In this document: one piece after another, positions 48,817 through 54,381 of the stretch | Layout of the letters: the number at the start of each line of letters is the position of its first letter | Position numbering within the stretch: the stretch's first letter is position 1 | Origin: Planktothrix agardhii NIES-204 | GTDB taxonomy: Bacteria > Cyanobacteriota > Cyanobacteriia > Cyanobacteriales > Microcoleaceae | Assembly (NCBI GenBank): GCA_003609755.1 | Contig: AP017991.1 | Span: 1,443,501-1,507,500 of the forward strand | Direction: 5' to 3' | Length of the DNA: 64,000 bases | Notes under the pieces: model-generated | The model's database searches: none | The model's input: the letters and a program-made list of their open reading frames with translations, nothing else | Told to the model about the DNA's origin: nothing | Program-made: the position numbers and the translations under genes

Positions 48817-49392
48817 ATGAATGCTTTAACTGTCAATTTGAAATCATTAATAGAAATGACTGATGAGCAATTTTTTCAGCTATGTCAAAACAACCGGGAA
48901 TTGAGATTTGAAAGAAATGCCAATGGAGAATTAATAATTATGCCACCAACGGGAGGAGAAACAGGAAACAAAAATGCGAGAATCACTCAACAGGTAATGA
49001 ATTGGACTGATGCTGATGGTACTGGCATTGCTTTTGATTCTTCGACTTGTTTTAAATTACCTAATGGTGCAGATCGTTCTCCTGATGCTTCGTGGATCAA
49101 GTTAGAAAGATGGGATGCTTTAACCGATGAAGAAAAACAAAAATTTCCCCCTATTTGTCCTGATTTTGTAATTGAGTTACTTTCTCCTAGTGATAGTTTG
49201 AAGACTACACAGGAAAAAATGGGGGAATATATAGATAATGGTGTGCGTTTGGGTATATTAATTAATCGTAAATCTCGTCAAGTAGAGATTTATATACCAG
49301 GAAAAGAGGTTGAGGTTTTAGATTCTCCTGCTACGGTTTCAGGGGAAGATATTTTAAAGGATTTTGTGTTGAATTTGGGGATGATTTGGTAA
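48817..49392 (+). CDS. Uma2-family (DUF820) protein, copy 3
   Basis: 191 residues, same family plan as the genes at 26300 and 27175: EQFFQLCQNNRELRFERNAN, IIMPPTGGETGNKNARITQQ, GIAFDSSTCFKLPNGADRSP, CPDFVIELLSPSDSLKTTQE and GVRLGILINRKSRQVEIYIP. It has a twin at 50091 that shares also about 65 bp of upstream sequence, so the two arose by duplication around the TA pair between them. Confidence 0.85.
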   Translation: MNALTVNLKSLIEMTDEQFFQLCQNNRELRFERNANGELIIMPPTGGETGNKNARITQQVMNWTDADGTGIAFDSSTCFKLPNGADRSPDASWIKLERWDALTDEEKQKFPPICPDFVIELLSPSDSLKTTQEKMGEYIDNGVRLGILINRKSRQVEIYIPGKEVEVLDSPATVSGEDILKDFVLNLGMIW

Positions 49393-49428
49393 AATTATAG
49401 AGATAGTGTAGAAAAGGAAAAAACAGCC

Positions 49429-49656
49429 GTGAGTCAAACAGAAATTACAGATTCTTTGCTAACTAGCACAGGTTTCTATAGCCTCTTTCAAACCTTACCA
49501 CTAGAAATCCGACAAGGCTTTCTACAACTTTTATTTGAAAATAATTCCTCTGAATTAGAAGACTTTATCCTTTATTTAGCTTGTGAAAATTCTCGAAAAG
49601 AAGGATTTTTATCTGAATTAGAGTCTCAATCTCTCTTGGAGAGTTTGCCTCAATGA
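49429..49656 (+). CDS. putative antitoxin of a RelE/ParE module
   Basis: 75 residues from a GTG start (first residues SQTEITDSLLTSTGFYSLFQ). Helical and acidic, without a recognisable DNA-binding domain. It overlaps the toxin start (ATGA), which is the main reason to call it the antitoxin. The start codon is uncertain. Confidence 0.55.
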   Translation: MSQTEITDSLLTSTGFYSLFQTLPLEIRQGFLQLLFENNSSELEDFILYLACENSRKEGFLSELESQSLLESLPQ

Positions 49657-49922
49657 AATATCGAATTGCCAAATGCTTCAAAAAAGATTTAGATAAAATT
49701 AACAACCAAAAAATTCTCGCAAAAGTTAGAAAATGTATTGAAGCAATTGGAACTTCTCAATCACTATCCGAAATTCCCGATCTTGAAGCACTAAAAGGCT
49801 TCTCAGGATATTATCGCATTAAATTTGACTACAACTATCGGATTGGAATTTTTTGGGATGGCGAAGTTATCGAAATTCTCAAAATAGAGAGTCGAGAAGG
49901 ATTTTACAAAAATTTCCCGTAG
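49653..49922 (+). CDS. RelE/ParE-family toxin
   Basis: 89 residues: MKYRIAKCFKKDLDKINNQK, the EALKGFSGYYRIKFDYNYRI block (Leu-x-G-x-x-x-YRI-x-x-x-YRI) and VIEILKIESREGFYKNFP, the standard RelE/ParE fold. It is translationally coupled to the gene before it. Confidence 0.8.
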   Translation: MKYRIAKCFKKDLDKINNQKILAKVRKCIEAIGTSQSLSEIPDLEALKGFSGYYRIKFDYNYRIGIFWDGEVIEILKIESREGFYKNFP

Positions 49923-49994
49923 AAATAATGCGGTCTGCTTCCCAGTGCCTTCGGCAACGCCTTCTTCTTGTTGATTAAACTTTAATTTAAAATT

Positions 49995-50022
49995 GCGATC
50001 GCCTAATAATCACGAATCACAG
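49995..50022. repeat. HIP1-bordered dispersed repeat, left part
   Basis: GCGATCGCCTAATAATCACG then AATCACAG. It runs directly into the conserved upstream segment of the Uma2 gene at 50091, in the same arrangement as at 55191. Confidence 0.7.
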
Positions 50023-50090
50023 GAATATAATATATAATAGAATATGAGATAGTTAAAATTTCTCCCCGAACATTCAATGAGGATAGGACT

Positions 50091-50666
50091 ATGAATGCTT
50101 TAACTGTCAATTTGAAATCATTAATAGAAATGACTGATGAGCAGTTTTTTCAACTATGTCAAAATAACCGGGAATTGAGATTTGAAAGAAATGCAAATGG
50201 AGAGTTAATAATTATGCCACCAACGGGAGGAGAAACGGGAAATCGTAATGCGGGTATTACTGCTCAAGTTTGGATTTGGAATGAGCAAAATAAGGAGGGT
50301 ATAGTTTTTGATTCTTCGACTTGTTTTAAATTGCCTAATGGTGCAGATCGTTCTCCTGATGCTTCTTGGATCAAGTTAGAAAGATGGGATGCTTTAACTG
50401 ATGAGGAAAAACAAAAGTTTCCCCCTATTTGTCCTGATTTTGTAATTGAGTTACTTTCTCCTAGTGATAGTTTGAAGACTACACAAGAAAAGATGAGAGA
50501 ATATATAGATAATGGTGTGCGTTTGGGTATATTAATTAATCGTAAATCTCGTCAAGTAGAGATTTATATACCAGGAAAAGAGGTTGAGGTTTTAGATTCT
50601 CCTGCTACGGTTTCAGGGGAAGATATTTTAAAGGATTTTGTGTTAAATTTGGGGATGATTTGGTAA
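50091..50666 (+). CDS. Uma2-family (DUF820) protein, copy 4
   Basis: 191 residues. Nearly identical to the gene at 48817 apart from a block after ETGNRN (AGITAQVWIWNEQNKEGIVF here). As in the 26300/27175 pair, the variable part is the same small segment, which hints that this segment is exchanged among family members or is under diversifying selection. Confidence 0.85.
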   Translation: MNALTVNLKSLIEMTDEQFFQLCQNNRELRFERNANGELIIMPPTGGETGNRNAGITAQVWIWNEQNKEGIVFDSSTCFKLPNGADRSPDASWIKLERWDALTDEEKQKFPPICPDFVIELLSPSDSLKTTQEKMREYIDNGVRLGILINRKSRQVEIYIPGKEVEVLDSPATVSGEDILKDFVLNLGMIW

Positions 50667-50731
50667 ATAGCGATCGCCACTTCAAAAAAATCAAACAGCG
50701 ATCGCATTCCCCATACCCAAAATTTATCTAT

Positions 50732-51046
50732 CTAAACTTGAACTAACGGCTGATTGTTGATAGATGAACGAGGTTGAATTGTCTTTTTAATTTCTTCTCC
50801 CGCTAACTCTTGGGCTAGGCGTAACTCATAAGTTTTTTGCAAATTAAGCCATAGTTCTGCACCAGTGCCAAACCATCGTCCTAGACGTAATGCCGTGTCA
50901 GCAGTAATACCTCTTTGCCCTTTGAGAATTTGCGTAATCCGATTTGTGGGTATATGGAGCGATCGCGCTAATTCTGATGCACTAATTCCCAGTTCTTTTA
51001 ATTCATCAGATAAGATTTCGCCAGGGTGAATTGCAGGTCTTGGCAT
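50732..51046 (-). CDS. higA: HigA-family antitoxin
   Basis: 104 residues. MPRPAIHPGEILSDELKELG, the helix-turn-helix ISASELARSLHIPTNRITQI and then the RGITADTALRLGRWFGTGAE block are the HigA (VapI-type) antitoxin signature. HigA normally lies just downstream of higB and represses the shared promoter. Here the matching HigB is broken into two pieces with an actin gene between them (51060-51099 and 52379-52504), while HigA itself looks intact. Confidence 0.92.
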   Translation of the reverse strand: MPRPAIHPGEILSDELKELGISASELARSLHIPTNRITQILKGQRGITADTALRLGRWFGTGAELWLNLQKTYELRLAQELAGEEIKKTIQPRSSINNQPLVQV

Positions 51047-51059
51047 AGCTTTTTTCTCA

Positions 51060-51099
51060 TGAAGTGATAATCGACAATTTCGATATTAAATGGGCGATC
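51060..51099 (-). pseudogene. 3' remnant of higB toxin gene
   Basis: On the minus strand, just before the higA start, codons read DRPFNIEIVDYHF. The motif (P)xNxEIVDYH is the near-universal C-terminus of HigB toxins of the plasmid-maintenance killer family. Upstream of it the toxin sequence breaks off. Confidence 0.65.
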
Positions 51100-51297: not shown

Positions 51298-52209
51298 CTA
51301 GAAGCACTTCCGATGGACGATTGAAGACCCAGCTTCGTAATATTCCTCCCTCGTGATCCACCTATCTGAAAAACCACTGATAGAAGAAAGAATTGATCCC
51401 CCGATCCAAGTGGAATATTTTCCCTCTGGGACAGCAATAACTTTGACTTTAGAACTGATAGACTGAGGAGCGAGTTTTTGCACCTCTTTTGTCAGACGTT
51501 CTGCTAACCCAGGAAAAAGAGTAGTGCCACCGGATAGCACAATATTCTGATATAGATCACTTCTTATATCAGCATCGCTCTTTTCGATTGCCTGATATAC
51601 CTGCTCATGAATTCCCCCAAACTCCTTGCCTGTCAGAGATGGATAGTCTGTGATCTTGCGATCAGCAAGATTGATTCTTAGGATGCTATGGGGCAGAGCA
51701 TAGCCATCGCGAACGGGAACAATATGCGTCACTCCATCACCGATTTCCACCACTACTCCCGTAGGCTTACCAGCAGATTGGAGTGAAAGGACTGCCGTGT
51801 TAGCAACATAGAGTCCCGGCACACCAAAGGTGTCGAACAAGATCTCAGTTAGTTTCTCTCGATTGCGATTTGGATTTAGTGACGTTTCTGTGATCAATAC
51901 ATTGTGTTCTTCAGGGTTTACTCGCAGCTCTTTCTTAAACGTGTGATCGAGAACTTTTTCAAAGTCGTCCCAGTCTTCAACGATGCCATGCTCAATGGGG
52001 CGTTTCAGGATCAATACCCCGCGCTTTTCCTCAGCCTGTGTACCTACATAATAGTCCTTCTGGTCAGAGCCGACCATAATGCCTGGAACTTTTGGTCTGC
52101 CAACGACAGTGGGAAATACAGCCCTTGGTGCGTCTTCACCTGCAAAGCCAGCCTTCACATAGTCTGAGCCAATGTCAATAATCACGTGCGGTTTTTCTCG
52201 ATCGTACAT
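51298..52209 (-). CDS. eukaryotic-type actin lacking subdomain 4
   Basis: 303 residues that follow eukaryotic actin closely from end to end. Phosphate loop 1 is [20 protein letters not shown]; the subdomain 2 and D-loop region is [19 protein letters not shown]; then come [39 protein letters not shown] and [18 protein letters not shown]. Phosphate loop 2 is [20 protein letters not shown], the adenosine loop [18 protein letters not shown], then [16 protein letters not shown] and the C-terminus SSIVHRKCF. After ADRKITDY the sequence jumps to GGIHEQVYQ, omitting about actin residues 189-272 (subdomain 4). Actin Gln137 is Thr here (VANTAVLSL), and Asp154 is Glu. The reading frame is open, with no stops, so a product is likely. 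Transfer from a eukaryote is inferred; Microcystis PCC 7806 has a known case with a longer actin and profilin. No profilin is seen here. Confidence 0.9.
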
Positions 52210-52378: not shown

Positions 52379-52504
52379 TCATCTGACCGTTTTAAAGGTC
52401 ACTACTAAAATGAGAAACGCTTGTCTTTCAAATGCCTGAAATTCTTTGACACGATCGCCAGCAGCAAATTTGGCTGTGCGTTTGTCTTTATATTTTTGAG
52501 GCAT
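52379..52504 (-). pseudogene. 5' remnant of higB toxin gene
   Basis: A 41-codon open frame from an ATG. The first 29 or so residues, PQKYKDKRTAKFAAGDRVKE then FQAFERQA, match the N-terminus of HigB-type killer toxins (pattern KxKRTxxFAAGxRVKEFxxFxxQA). After that the sequence becomes unrelated and reaches a stop. It lies in the same orientation as actin, the 3' higB remnant and higA, so the original gene was split. Confidence 0.75.
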
Positions 52505-52508
52505 AGGC

Positions 52509-52540
52509 AAGTGTTATGCGTTACGTCAAGTATAACACTT
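52509..52540 (-). promoter_or_regulatory. operator-like inverted repeat upstream of split higB
   Basis: AAGTGTTAT and ATAACACTT (9-bp perfect arms, 14-bp spacer), placed 5 bp before the higB remnant's start. On the minus strand TTGACG lies in the middle. This is where a HigA-bound operator and promoter are expected, and it could now drive the actin gene. Confidence 0.5.
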
Positions 52541-52680: not shown

Positions 52681-54381
52681 ATGGCAGAACTTAATGTCAC
52701 GAAAAAAAGTATAAGTAGTTTATTTTCTGAAATGCAGGGAACTAAATTCATAATCCCTGATTATCAACGACCATATAAATGGGATTTAGAAAAATGCGAA
52801 ATTCTATGGCAGGATCTTACAAGTTTCTTTGAAGAAAGAACGGTAAGTGAGGAGTATTACTTAGGCACAGTTGTTACTTGTAAAAACGATGAATCTGGAA
52901 AGATTGAAATTGAAGTTATCGATGGGCAACAGCGTATCACCTCACTCTTGCTTCTTCTAAGAGCATTCTATTCAAAATTGGAAAACAGTGCAATTGAAGA
53001 CGACAATATTGCTGGTCTCAAGAATCAAATTGCACCATGTATTTGGGACGTTAACCCTATTTCGGGAAGAGTTTCTGACACAAGTTTAATCCATATAGAA
53101 TCACGAGTTGCAACTGAATCTGACAATGAAGTATTTCATGCGATTCTTCGGACAGGAAAATCAAAACCAAATGCTACCGACCTTTATTCAAAAAATTATG
53201 ACTATTTCTTTTCAAAGTGTGAAGAATATGCAATGAATAATCCAATTCATTGGCAGGAATTCTGTGTTTCTATTTTAAAAAACTGCATTATACTTCCAAT
53301 TGATTGCGAAAAACTAGACACAGCGTTGACCATATTTTCAACTCTGAACGACCGAGGAATGCCACTGTCGGATTCCGACATTTTTAAAGCCCAAATTTAT
53401 CGTACTAAGAATACCGAGGAAGAAAAATCAGAATTCACTAATTCATGGAGAGAGCTTACTGAAACAGTTGATGACGCAGGAATGACTCTGGATGCTCTTT
53501 TCCGAAATTATTCGCACGTTATTCGTGGCAGAAGTCGTGATAAAACAAAAGAAATCGCTCTAAGAAAATTTTATGCTGGCGAAAAATTTGAAAAATTAAA
53601 GCAACCTAACTTGATGAAAGAATTGCAAGAGCTTGCAGAATTTTGGCTAACTGTGAAACAAGGTAAATCTACATTTCAGGGACGAGAGTTTATTTCTCAG
53701 CAGTCGTTTAAATATCTTCATTGCCTTAACCATTACCCAAATGAATACTGGAAATATGTTACAAGTGCATATTTTTTCAAAAATAAAGATTTGGATTCGT
53801 TTTATACAAGTTTTTCTGAATATCTCGCAACTTTAATTTCATTTTTGTTTGCTGAGTTTGTTCAGAAACCAACCGTAAATAAAATAAAGGACTCATGTTA
53901 CCAATTTTGCATTGATATTTTTGAAGGAAAACCACTAACAATAATCACTTCAATTCCTCCAGAATTTTCAACTACTTTGGCCCAAACCGTTAATTATAAA
54001 ATTGCTCGCGCCATGATTTTGCTTCATGCTTATCTAAATCCCAATCAAATTGACATGATTGAGTCCAATTTTGAGATTGAACATATTTTCCCTCGTGTTT
54101 GGCAAGCAGCTAACTACAATGGCTGGAATCACGAAGATGCAAAAGTCTATTTGGAGCGATATGGAAACAAAGTGGCTATAGGAAAAAAACTAAACATCCA
54201 AGCTGGTAATGGTTATTTTGGACAGAAGAAAAATAAATATAAAGACTCACCCATTGCTAATGTTAATGACCTTTCAAAATACCCAAGTGATGATTGGGTA
54301 AAGACCGACATTGAAGCAAGAGAAAAACTGTTTTTAGAATCAATTGTGAGTTTCTTTCATTCCAATTTGCATAAAAAATAA
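52681..54381 (+). CDS. GmrSD-like (DUF262-DUF1524) restriction protein
   Basis: 566 residues. The N-terminal DUF262 domain has FIIPDYQRPYKWDLEKCEIL and the nucleotide-handling DGQQRITSL (81-89). LSTLNDRGMPLSDSDIFKAQ is the second conserved DUF262 block; here it reads FSTLNDRGMPLSDSDIFKAQ. The C-terminal DUF1524 domain has an HNH-type centre, NFEIEHIFPRVW with His468, and an RYGNKVAIGKKLNIQAG block. Single-chain GmrSD proteins are type IV enzymes that cut DNA carrying modified cytosines, so it is probably an anti-phage system. It is AT-rich and lacks HIP1 octamers, unlike its flanks, which suggests transfer. Confidence 0.87.
   Translation: MAELNVTKKSISSLFSEMQGTKFIIPDYQRPYKWDLEKCEILWQDLTSFFEERTVSEEYYLGTVVTCKNDESGKIEIEVIDGQQRITSLLLLLRAFYSKLENSAIEDDNIAGLKNQIAPCIWDVNPISGRVSDTSLIHIESRVATESDNEVFHAILRTGKSKPNATDLYSKNYDYFFSKCEEYAMNNPIHWQEFCVSILKNCIILPIDCEKLDTALTIFSTLNDRGMPLSDSDIFKAQIYRTKNTEEEKSEFTNSWRELTETVDDAGMTLDALFRNYSHVIRGRSRDKTKEIALRKFYAGEKFEKLKQPNLMKELQELAEFWLTVKQGKSTFQGREFISQQSFKYLHCLNHYPNEYWKYVTSAYFFKNKDLDSFYTSFSEYLATLISFLFAEFVQKPTVNKIKDSCYQFCIDIFEGKPLTIITSIPPEFSTTLAQTVNYKIARAMILLHAYLNPNQIDMIESNFEIEHIFPRVWQAANYNGWNHEDAKVYLERYGNKVAIGKKLNIQAGNGYFGQKKNKYKDSPIANVNDLSKYPSDDWVKTDIEAREKLFLESIVSFFHSNLHKK

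Follow-up and report, generated by a model that had tools for sequence, protein, structure and literature searches.

Actin is among the most constrained of eukaryotic proteins, and its constraint is usually credited to filament contacts and to its many partners. The actin-like protein AlfA of Bacillus subtilis plasmids has no equivalent of subdomain 4 (IIB); it forms filaments that segregate plasmids with the help of a dedicated adaptor, and it is not eukaryotic-type in sequence. In Microcystis aeruginosa PCC 7806 a eukaryote-type actin, ActM, and a profilin, PfnM, are encoded on a genomic island (PMC3254629). That account places ActM, 65% identical to eukaryotic actin, solely in one strain, describes its polymers as ribbon-like and knows of no bacterial homologs of eukaryotic actin-binding proteins besides PfnM (PMC3254629). 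A bacterial actin of small architecture has already been named, since NCBIfam holds a 'syringactin' model (NF040575) of 286 positions only; the word itself was not found in the literature searched. The accessible parts of PMC2442094, PMC6906331, PMC12050087 and PMC5996124 make no mention of a captured eukaryotic actin without subdomain 4, and the titles and abstracts found on cyanobacterial or Planktothrix actin, on cofilin or profilin and on subdomain-4-less actins hold no such actin, most subscription papers lying outside the scope of this search.

The window analysed here is a stretch of 64,000 nucleotides from Planktothrix agardhii NIES-204. On its minus strand, at 51298..52209, lies an open reading frame of 303 amino acids that sequence comparison identifies as a eukaryotic-type actin; a sequence-only reading of the DNA had given the same coordinates, open frame and identity, and all three hold. 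The protein matches the Pfam actin family PF00022 at 3.5e-103 (345.8 bits against a cut-off of 27) and is 61% identical to cardiac actin. An identity as MreB was rejected, the Pfam match to that family being weak (2.3e-6). The three PDB alignments listed are all to eukaryotic actins and consist of two blocks apiece, the best match listed pairing chain residues 2-191 with query 2-191 and chain 264-376 with query 189-303. Judged by its sequence, the protein is a derivative of the PF00022 family without being a complete actin. A genome-wide search found it to be the single eukaryotic-type actin of its carrier genome.

The closest full-length relative, L002 (CAMCYK010000083.1, in a record titled Akkermansia muciniphila MAG MiE-16apr19-166), is 76% identical to the window actin in protein and 84% in DNA, and the two are sisters with support of 100/100 in two trees and 94.5/98 in a third that includes the short actin of genome G105. 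Aligned as DNA, they are separated by a single in-frame gap of 225 nt and by no other indels. These 225 nt are present in L002 and absent at 51642..51643 (minus strand) of the window gene, where Tyr188 (query 189) is fused to Pro264 (query 190). The residues missing are therefore 189-263 in actin numbering, 75 residues and most of subdomain 4; counting that subdomain as residues 181-269 (89 positions), a stub of 14 positions is left, so that the protein does not have the four subdomains of a eukaryotic-type actin. Subdomains 1 (144/144 positions), 2 (37/37) and 3 (104/104) are complete, and subdomain 2 with its D-loop (actin 33-69; 52000..52110, minus strand) is 57% identical to that of cardiac actin; this segment and the junction were placed by alignment and arithmetic. 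The clean in-frame drop of subdomain 4 proposed in the sequence-only reading is thus borne out, but its limits, from about 188 to about 273, were slightly too wide. Five AlphaFold models (pLDDT 75.4 to 84.9) retain subdomains 1-3, as that reading had suggested checking, and fall below a pLDDT of 50 at residues 183-196, around the junction. Because actin sequences alone served as input, a folded model was expected and is no proof of stability. In a structural comparison of the model with VIA-align, AlfA was missing among the 50 matches listed, which says nothing on their relation.

At the nucleotide site, the codons of actin Gln137 (51796..51798) and Asp154 (51745..51747), both on the minus strand and located by alignment and arithmetic, encode Thr and Glu, so that the catalytic pair is absent while H161 is kept. 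These replacements had been claimed from the sequence and are real, yet both also occur in L002, which has subdomain 4. Since they are common to the full-length sister they preceded the deletion, and on this comparison they are not tied to it. Replacement of Gln137 accompanies several captures, since it is found in four of the eight full-length actins compared (T in L002, A in G285, G in G112 and T in G052). The window protein retains D11, K18, G156-D157-G158, H161, G301-G302-T303 and K336, which speaks for nucleotide binding; H161 and K336, by contrast, are changed in L002. At 15 of the 21 positions of the phosphate-loop set it is as in cardiac actin, and the D-loop core M44-V45-G46 and the C-terminal SIVHRKC are intact, in agreement with the conserved blocks first noticed. 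R210, K213 and E214, which we take to belong to the adenine pocket, were lost with the deletion.

To place the gene among its relatives we surveyed its order, in which 14 of 388 genomes gave a match. One of these, in G010, was judged a piece of MreB by its sequence and score (8.9e-4) and was lost with a profile built from the small forms, which recovered the same 13 actins that remain, one of them broken (G137). Leaving out G010 and the G137 fragment, seven of the 12 intact actins have the full length or come close to it. Subdomain 4 is missing from the other five, which comprise the window gene and the mini-actins of G234, G129, G122 and G105. In the four mini-actins, residues 35-63 or 35-67, most of subdomain 2, are gone as well, and the phosphate-loop set is as in cardiac actin at 2 to 9 of its 21 positions; position 15 is D or N in three of them, and G in the G105 protein. 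The sequence-only reading knew of no description of a captured actin without subdomain 4, and no matching account appeared in the literature searched; the window protein is not unique, given these five of 12 and the syringactin model. In a sample of the phylum 3 of 386 genomes carried actins, all three in this order, and surveys by family gave 3 of 61 for the family of the window and 2 of 50 and 4 of 13 for two others; in the order of the L002 genome that genome is the one carrier among 288.

Internal losses of at least ten residues all lie in subdomains 2 and 4, the transposase-cut end of the G137 fragment aside. By the analyst's count of independent events, with gaps of one or two residues uncounted, 7 of 7 losses fall at the pointed end (binomial P 5e-4), or 8 of 10 (P 0.004) if two doubtful gaps of the G105 mini-actin are scored as misses. 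From the G052 (L032:5154-6302) and G110 (L033:13673-14830) actins, which belong to different clades, precisely the same D-loop stretch is missing, residues 35-44; the two losses look independent, because G110 lies inside the clade of G093 (96-99) and G052 outside it. The G052 actin also carries Y143H and M355R. The G112 actin has small gaps at 46-48 and 234-236, likewise within subdomain 2 or 4, and a one-residue gap at 91, outside subdomains 2 and 4, is shared by G089 and three of the mini-actins. A single origin of the mini-actins is unsupported, the G234 and G105 proteins being unplaced in the trees (bootstrap 28-43), and for that reason the independent losses of subdomain 4 number at least two and at most four; the minimum would comprise the window gene, with its full-length sister, and the mini-actins.

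Several of these relatives deserve description. At L022:9547-11269, in G234, a mini-actin of 257 amino acids without subdomains 2 and 4 precedes a profilin by 0.5 kb; this profilin and that of G112 agree at 115 of 139 positions (83%; dN 0.134, dS 0.857). Three further mini-actins with degenerate nucleotide motifs, at L023:9731-10528, L024:9824-10621 and L025:9384-10133, belong to other genera, the first two forming a well supported pair. Identity to cardiac or beta actin reaches 84-90% in the actins of G285, G089, G093, G076 and G110, so some transfers may be recent. In G137 the broken actin (L031:9823-10347) amounts to a frame of 174 amino acids with 86% identity to the actin of G285. At its end it runs into an adjacent transposase-like gene, and the 20 kb searched contained no other piece of actin.

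Since its split from L002 the window protein has changed alone at 20 sites at which L002 agrees with cardiac actin, among them G15D, in the first phosphate loop, K113N, Y143Q, G182D, D184K, L185I, I267T, T351G and M355R. Positions 143, 351 and 355 presumably line the cleft that receives the D-loop of a neighbouring subunit in filaments; K113N is a cross-strand and I267T a plug change. Including V43I, 6 of the 20 changes fall at filament-interface sites, a borderline enrichment (P 0.050) against a set of 43 of 299 sites that was not computed from a structure, as compared with 3 of 28 own changes of L002 at the same sites (P 0.80). The first interpretation was of a possible filament former with slow or no ATP hydrolysis, by analogy with AlfA; worked out, it would polymerise through longitudinal D-loop contacts into single-stranded or ribbon-like filaments without subdomain 4. 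The kept phosphate loops, H161, K336 and D-loop core would suit such a filament, as do the recurrent loss of Gln137 in full-length actins and the ribbon-like polymers reported for ActM (PMC3254629). Set against it are the changes in the D-loop receptor, the cross-strand contact and the plug, together with the complete absence of the D-loop from the other four subdomain-4-less actins, so that a filament of this kind is possible but not favoured. We judge it unlikely, and the first interpretation as a whole is partly supported. Because the receptor cleft has changed, we prefer the reading that the protein is a non-filamentous core actin kept for its partner-binding surface; this is our best explanation, held tentatively and at somewhat less than an even chance, and it is favoured over an AlfA-like filament because it accords better with the changes at the interfaces and with the smaller relatives. 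Counting against it are the intact M44-V45-G46, the retained nucleotide-site residues, a barbed-end surface that has changed too and the want of a profilin or cofilin match in the genome.

The genomic setting resembles that of an insertion. The segment carrying the actin interrupts a higB toxin gene, whose 3' remnant lies at 51061..51098 and whose 5' remnant lies at 52419..52510 (both on the minus strand, by comparison with G126 and arithmetic), and it replaces 161 nt of that gene. In G126, a genome of the same species, an uninterrupted higB (PF05015; L053:4986-5276) stands beside higA in a collinear locus from which the actin is absent, and on the 5' side the match to G126 continues beyond the start of higB as far as 52574. 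A higA-like antitoxin (HTH_3), an open frame of 104 amino acids found by domain scan, lies at 50732..51046 (minus strand), on the same side as Uma2 genes and a gene that is probably recN-like by its sequence; the other flank holds a GmrSD/DUF262-type restriction protein (52681..54381, plus strand, by domain scans), a ParE/Phd pair and an MmeI-type restriction enzyme. Very similar Uma2 genes occur in window 48817-51046, which holds two of them, and in L053:2146-8563, and G126 has two higA copies a few kilobases apart; such repeats may promote turnover of the locus. G234, another genome of the genus, has the same higA locus with a different actin (47% identical) in opposite orientation, followed by profilin, and with higB broken at another position. 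Among the 36 window ORFs of 150 amino acids or more, the actin is the one whose codon usage is most atypical, and its GC content is 46.3% against 38.4% for the window. An assembly artefact or contamination is scarcely credible: although the nearest full-length relative sits in a metagenome bin, the window is part of a contig of 4.78 Mb, the genome is 99.99% complete in five contigs, the flanks are collinear with both G126 and G234, and an error excising exactly 75 codons would be rare.

This setting also bears on the main rival to the core-actin reading, namely that the gene is a passenger which the host can do without: a foreign actin, functional elsewhere, that was inserted recently and is now being lost, with the deletion as a first step of decay. 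Its presence in one of the ten genomes of the genus, the uninterrupted higB of G126, the site itself, in a toxin gene cut in two amid toxin-antitoxin, Uma2, GmrSD and MmeI genes, and the foreign composition are all as a passenger would have them, and the broken actin of G137 exemplifies such an outcome. The sequence-only reading had set against itself relaxed selection, with dN/dS near 1; the value between the window actin and L002 is instead 0.47 (bootstrap 0.33-0.67), a figure taken over the whole divergence and inseparable into parts before and after the deletion, and third codon positions hold 64 of the 142 differences. The gene has thus been constrained below neutrality over this divergence, but 0.47 is high for an actin, the G093-G110 pair giving 0.09. 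The window gene shows no acceleration despite its missing subdomain, since branch lengths after the split are alike (0.144, against 0.159 for the full-length L002) and relative-rate counts with four outgroups (20-22 against 25-28) do not differ significantly. No stop or frameshift interrupts the 303 codons; in simulated neutral drift the probability of no stop is 0.58, 0.26, 0.08 and 0.024 at 0.02, 0.05, 0.10 and 0.15 substitutions per site, and given the first of these values, stops could not be expected to reveal a deletion of recent date. The earlier argument from the open frame against simple decay is therefore weak if the deletion is recent, yet plain decay is not seen, in view of the dN/dS, the steady rate and the want of a second indel. 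We consider the passenger less likely than not, though a strong rival. Among the relatives, the G129 and G122 mini-actins, from two families, are under purifying selection (dN/dS 0.22, 0.12-0.33), and the G234 mini-actin gives 0.32 (0.22-0.44) with the G112 actin.

Turning to possible partners, neither profilin nor cofilin was matched at E 0.1 in the carrier genome, which leaves the window actin without a known partner. ADF/cofilin genes do occur on bacterial contigs, at L002:4873-5295 and L032:2344-2769 (78 and 85 bits, cut-off 22.4); they are 76% identical in DNA and come from two different organisms, in each case with a eukaryotic-type actin nearby. Of 378 genomes of the order, one, the actin carrier G052, has a cofilin match. 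Beyond actin and cofilin, L002 encodes an eEF1A-like GTPase (L002:5461-6867; GTP-eEF1A_C domain) with a GC content of 61-68%, like its contig, the actin having 49% and the cofilin stretch 37%. Presumed profilin-contact positions are as in cardiac actin at 16 of 22 sites in the window protein and at 12 of 22 in L002, and because no more than 16 match, the barbed-end surface has changed too. The same 16 could serve a decoy, a defective subunit acting on the actin of bloom grazers or parasites after lysis or export, as the guessable hosts would be freshwater bloom formers; inspection by eye showed no export signal and a scan of six window neighbours no secretion gene, and we hold this very improbable. 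Membership of a defence system was considered, GmrSD-type proteins lying within about 4 kb of both the window gene and the G052 actin (a GmrSD_N protein in the latter case), and was rejected, as none of five actins scanned with PADLOC gave a match; what looked at first like such a protein next to the G105 actin is a transposase. Searches for carriage on mobile elements found no protein match to the window actin in plasmids or phages, none to the G234 mini-actin in plasmids or to the G122 mini-actin in phages, and no actin match in two scans of viral_contigs. A sigma-70 scan upstream of the window actin found 7 sites against 3.9 expected, nothing above chance worth using.

The core-actin reading can be cast as a sequence of steps. 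A eukaryotic actin gene would have passed into bacteria by horizontal transfer and diverged there with subdomain 4 still present, acquiring Q137T and D154E along a long stem shared with L002. The Planktothrix copy would then have lost residues 189-263, apparently in one in-frame step, giving a protein of subdomains 1, 2 and 3 without the pointed-end subdomain 4. We infer that this product is putatively expressed, forms no F-actin-like filaments and binds a putative partner; it would act as a soluble binding protein derived from actin, mostly without forming filaments, and offer its subdomain 1/3 surface, with weak ATP turnover or none. The cyanobacterial mini-actins may have gone further along the same road, having shed both pointed-end subdomains, 2 and 4, along with most of the nucleotide motifs under what is, where measurable, purifying selection. 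With considerable doubt we extend this to captured actins at large, which might time and again be reduced to subdomains 1 and 3, a core that lacks the pointed end, does not polymerise and in the end is free of nucleotide. Selection would maintain this core for the surface it offers and for its partner, which is profilin in one case, and the window gene, with subdomain 2 and the phosphate loops still in place, would be an intermediate. Bacterial capture would release actin from most of its partners. Here nearly a whole subdomain has gone while the remainder evolves no faster than its full-length sister, and both pointed-end subdomains have gone in four relatives, so that the parts of actin required for folding, for binding nucleotide and for binding profilin in the absence of polymerisation become open to direct test.

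In comparison with the described systems, the window actin shares with AlfA the absence of the subdomain IIB equivalent, but it is chromosomal, on a 4.78 Mb contig, and no adaptor was recognised among the six window neighbours scanned. Like ActM, it is a eukaryote-type actin in a bloom-forming cyanobacterium. The G112 actin, which is 66% identical to cardiac and beta actin and adjoins a profilin, is probably ActM or a near relative; the window actin is 55% identical to it, lacks subdomain 4, groups with L002 and is not a full-length actin beside a profilin. G112 joins the window-L002 pair at 71.1/76 and 74.5/43 in two trees and, outside the G105 mini-actin, at 80.9/29 in the third, ActM itself not being among the sequences. 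Partners differ between captured actins: profilins adjoin the G234 mini-actin and the G112 actin, cofilins adjoin the L002 and G052 actins, and the window genome has a match to neither. These cofilins and profilins would lengthen the short list of bacterial actin-binding proteins of eukaryotic type. Syringactin, too, would lack most of subdomains 2 and 4, because of the length of its model and of its alignments, in which NF040575 positions 6-284 pair with 7-263 of the G122 protein, nearly the whole mini-actin, and 38-284 with 73-302 of the window protein. The four mini-actins are alike to it in architecture and score 63.5-118.8 bits, below the curated cut-off of 300, whereas the window protein, at 113.2 bits likewise below it, differs in keeping subdomain 2. 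Beside these smaller forms, the window actin is part of a recurring reduction of captured actins and more than a single oddity.
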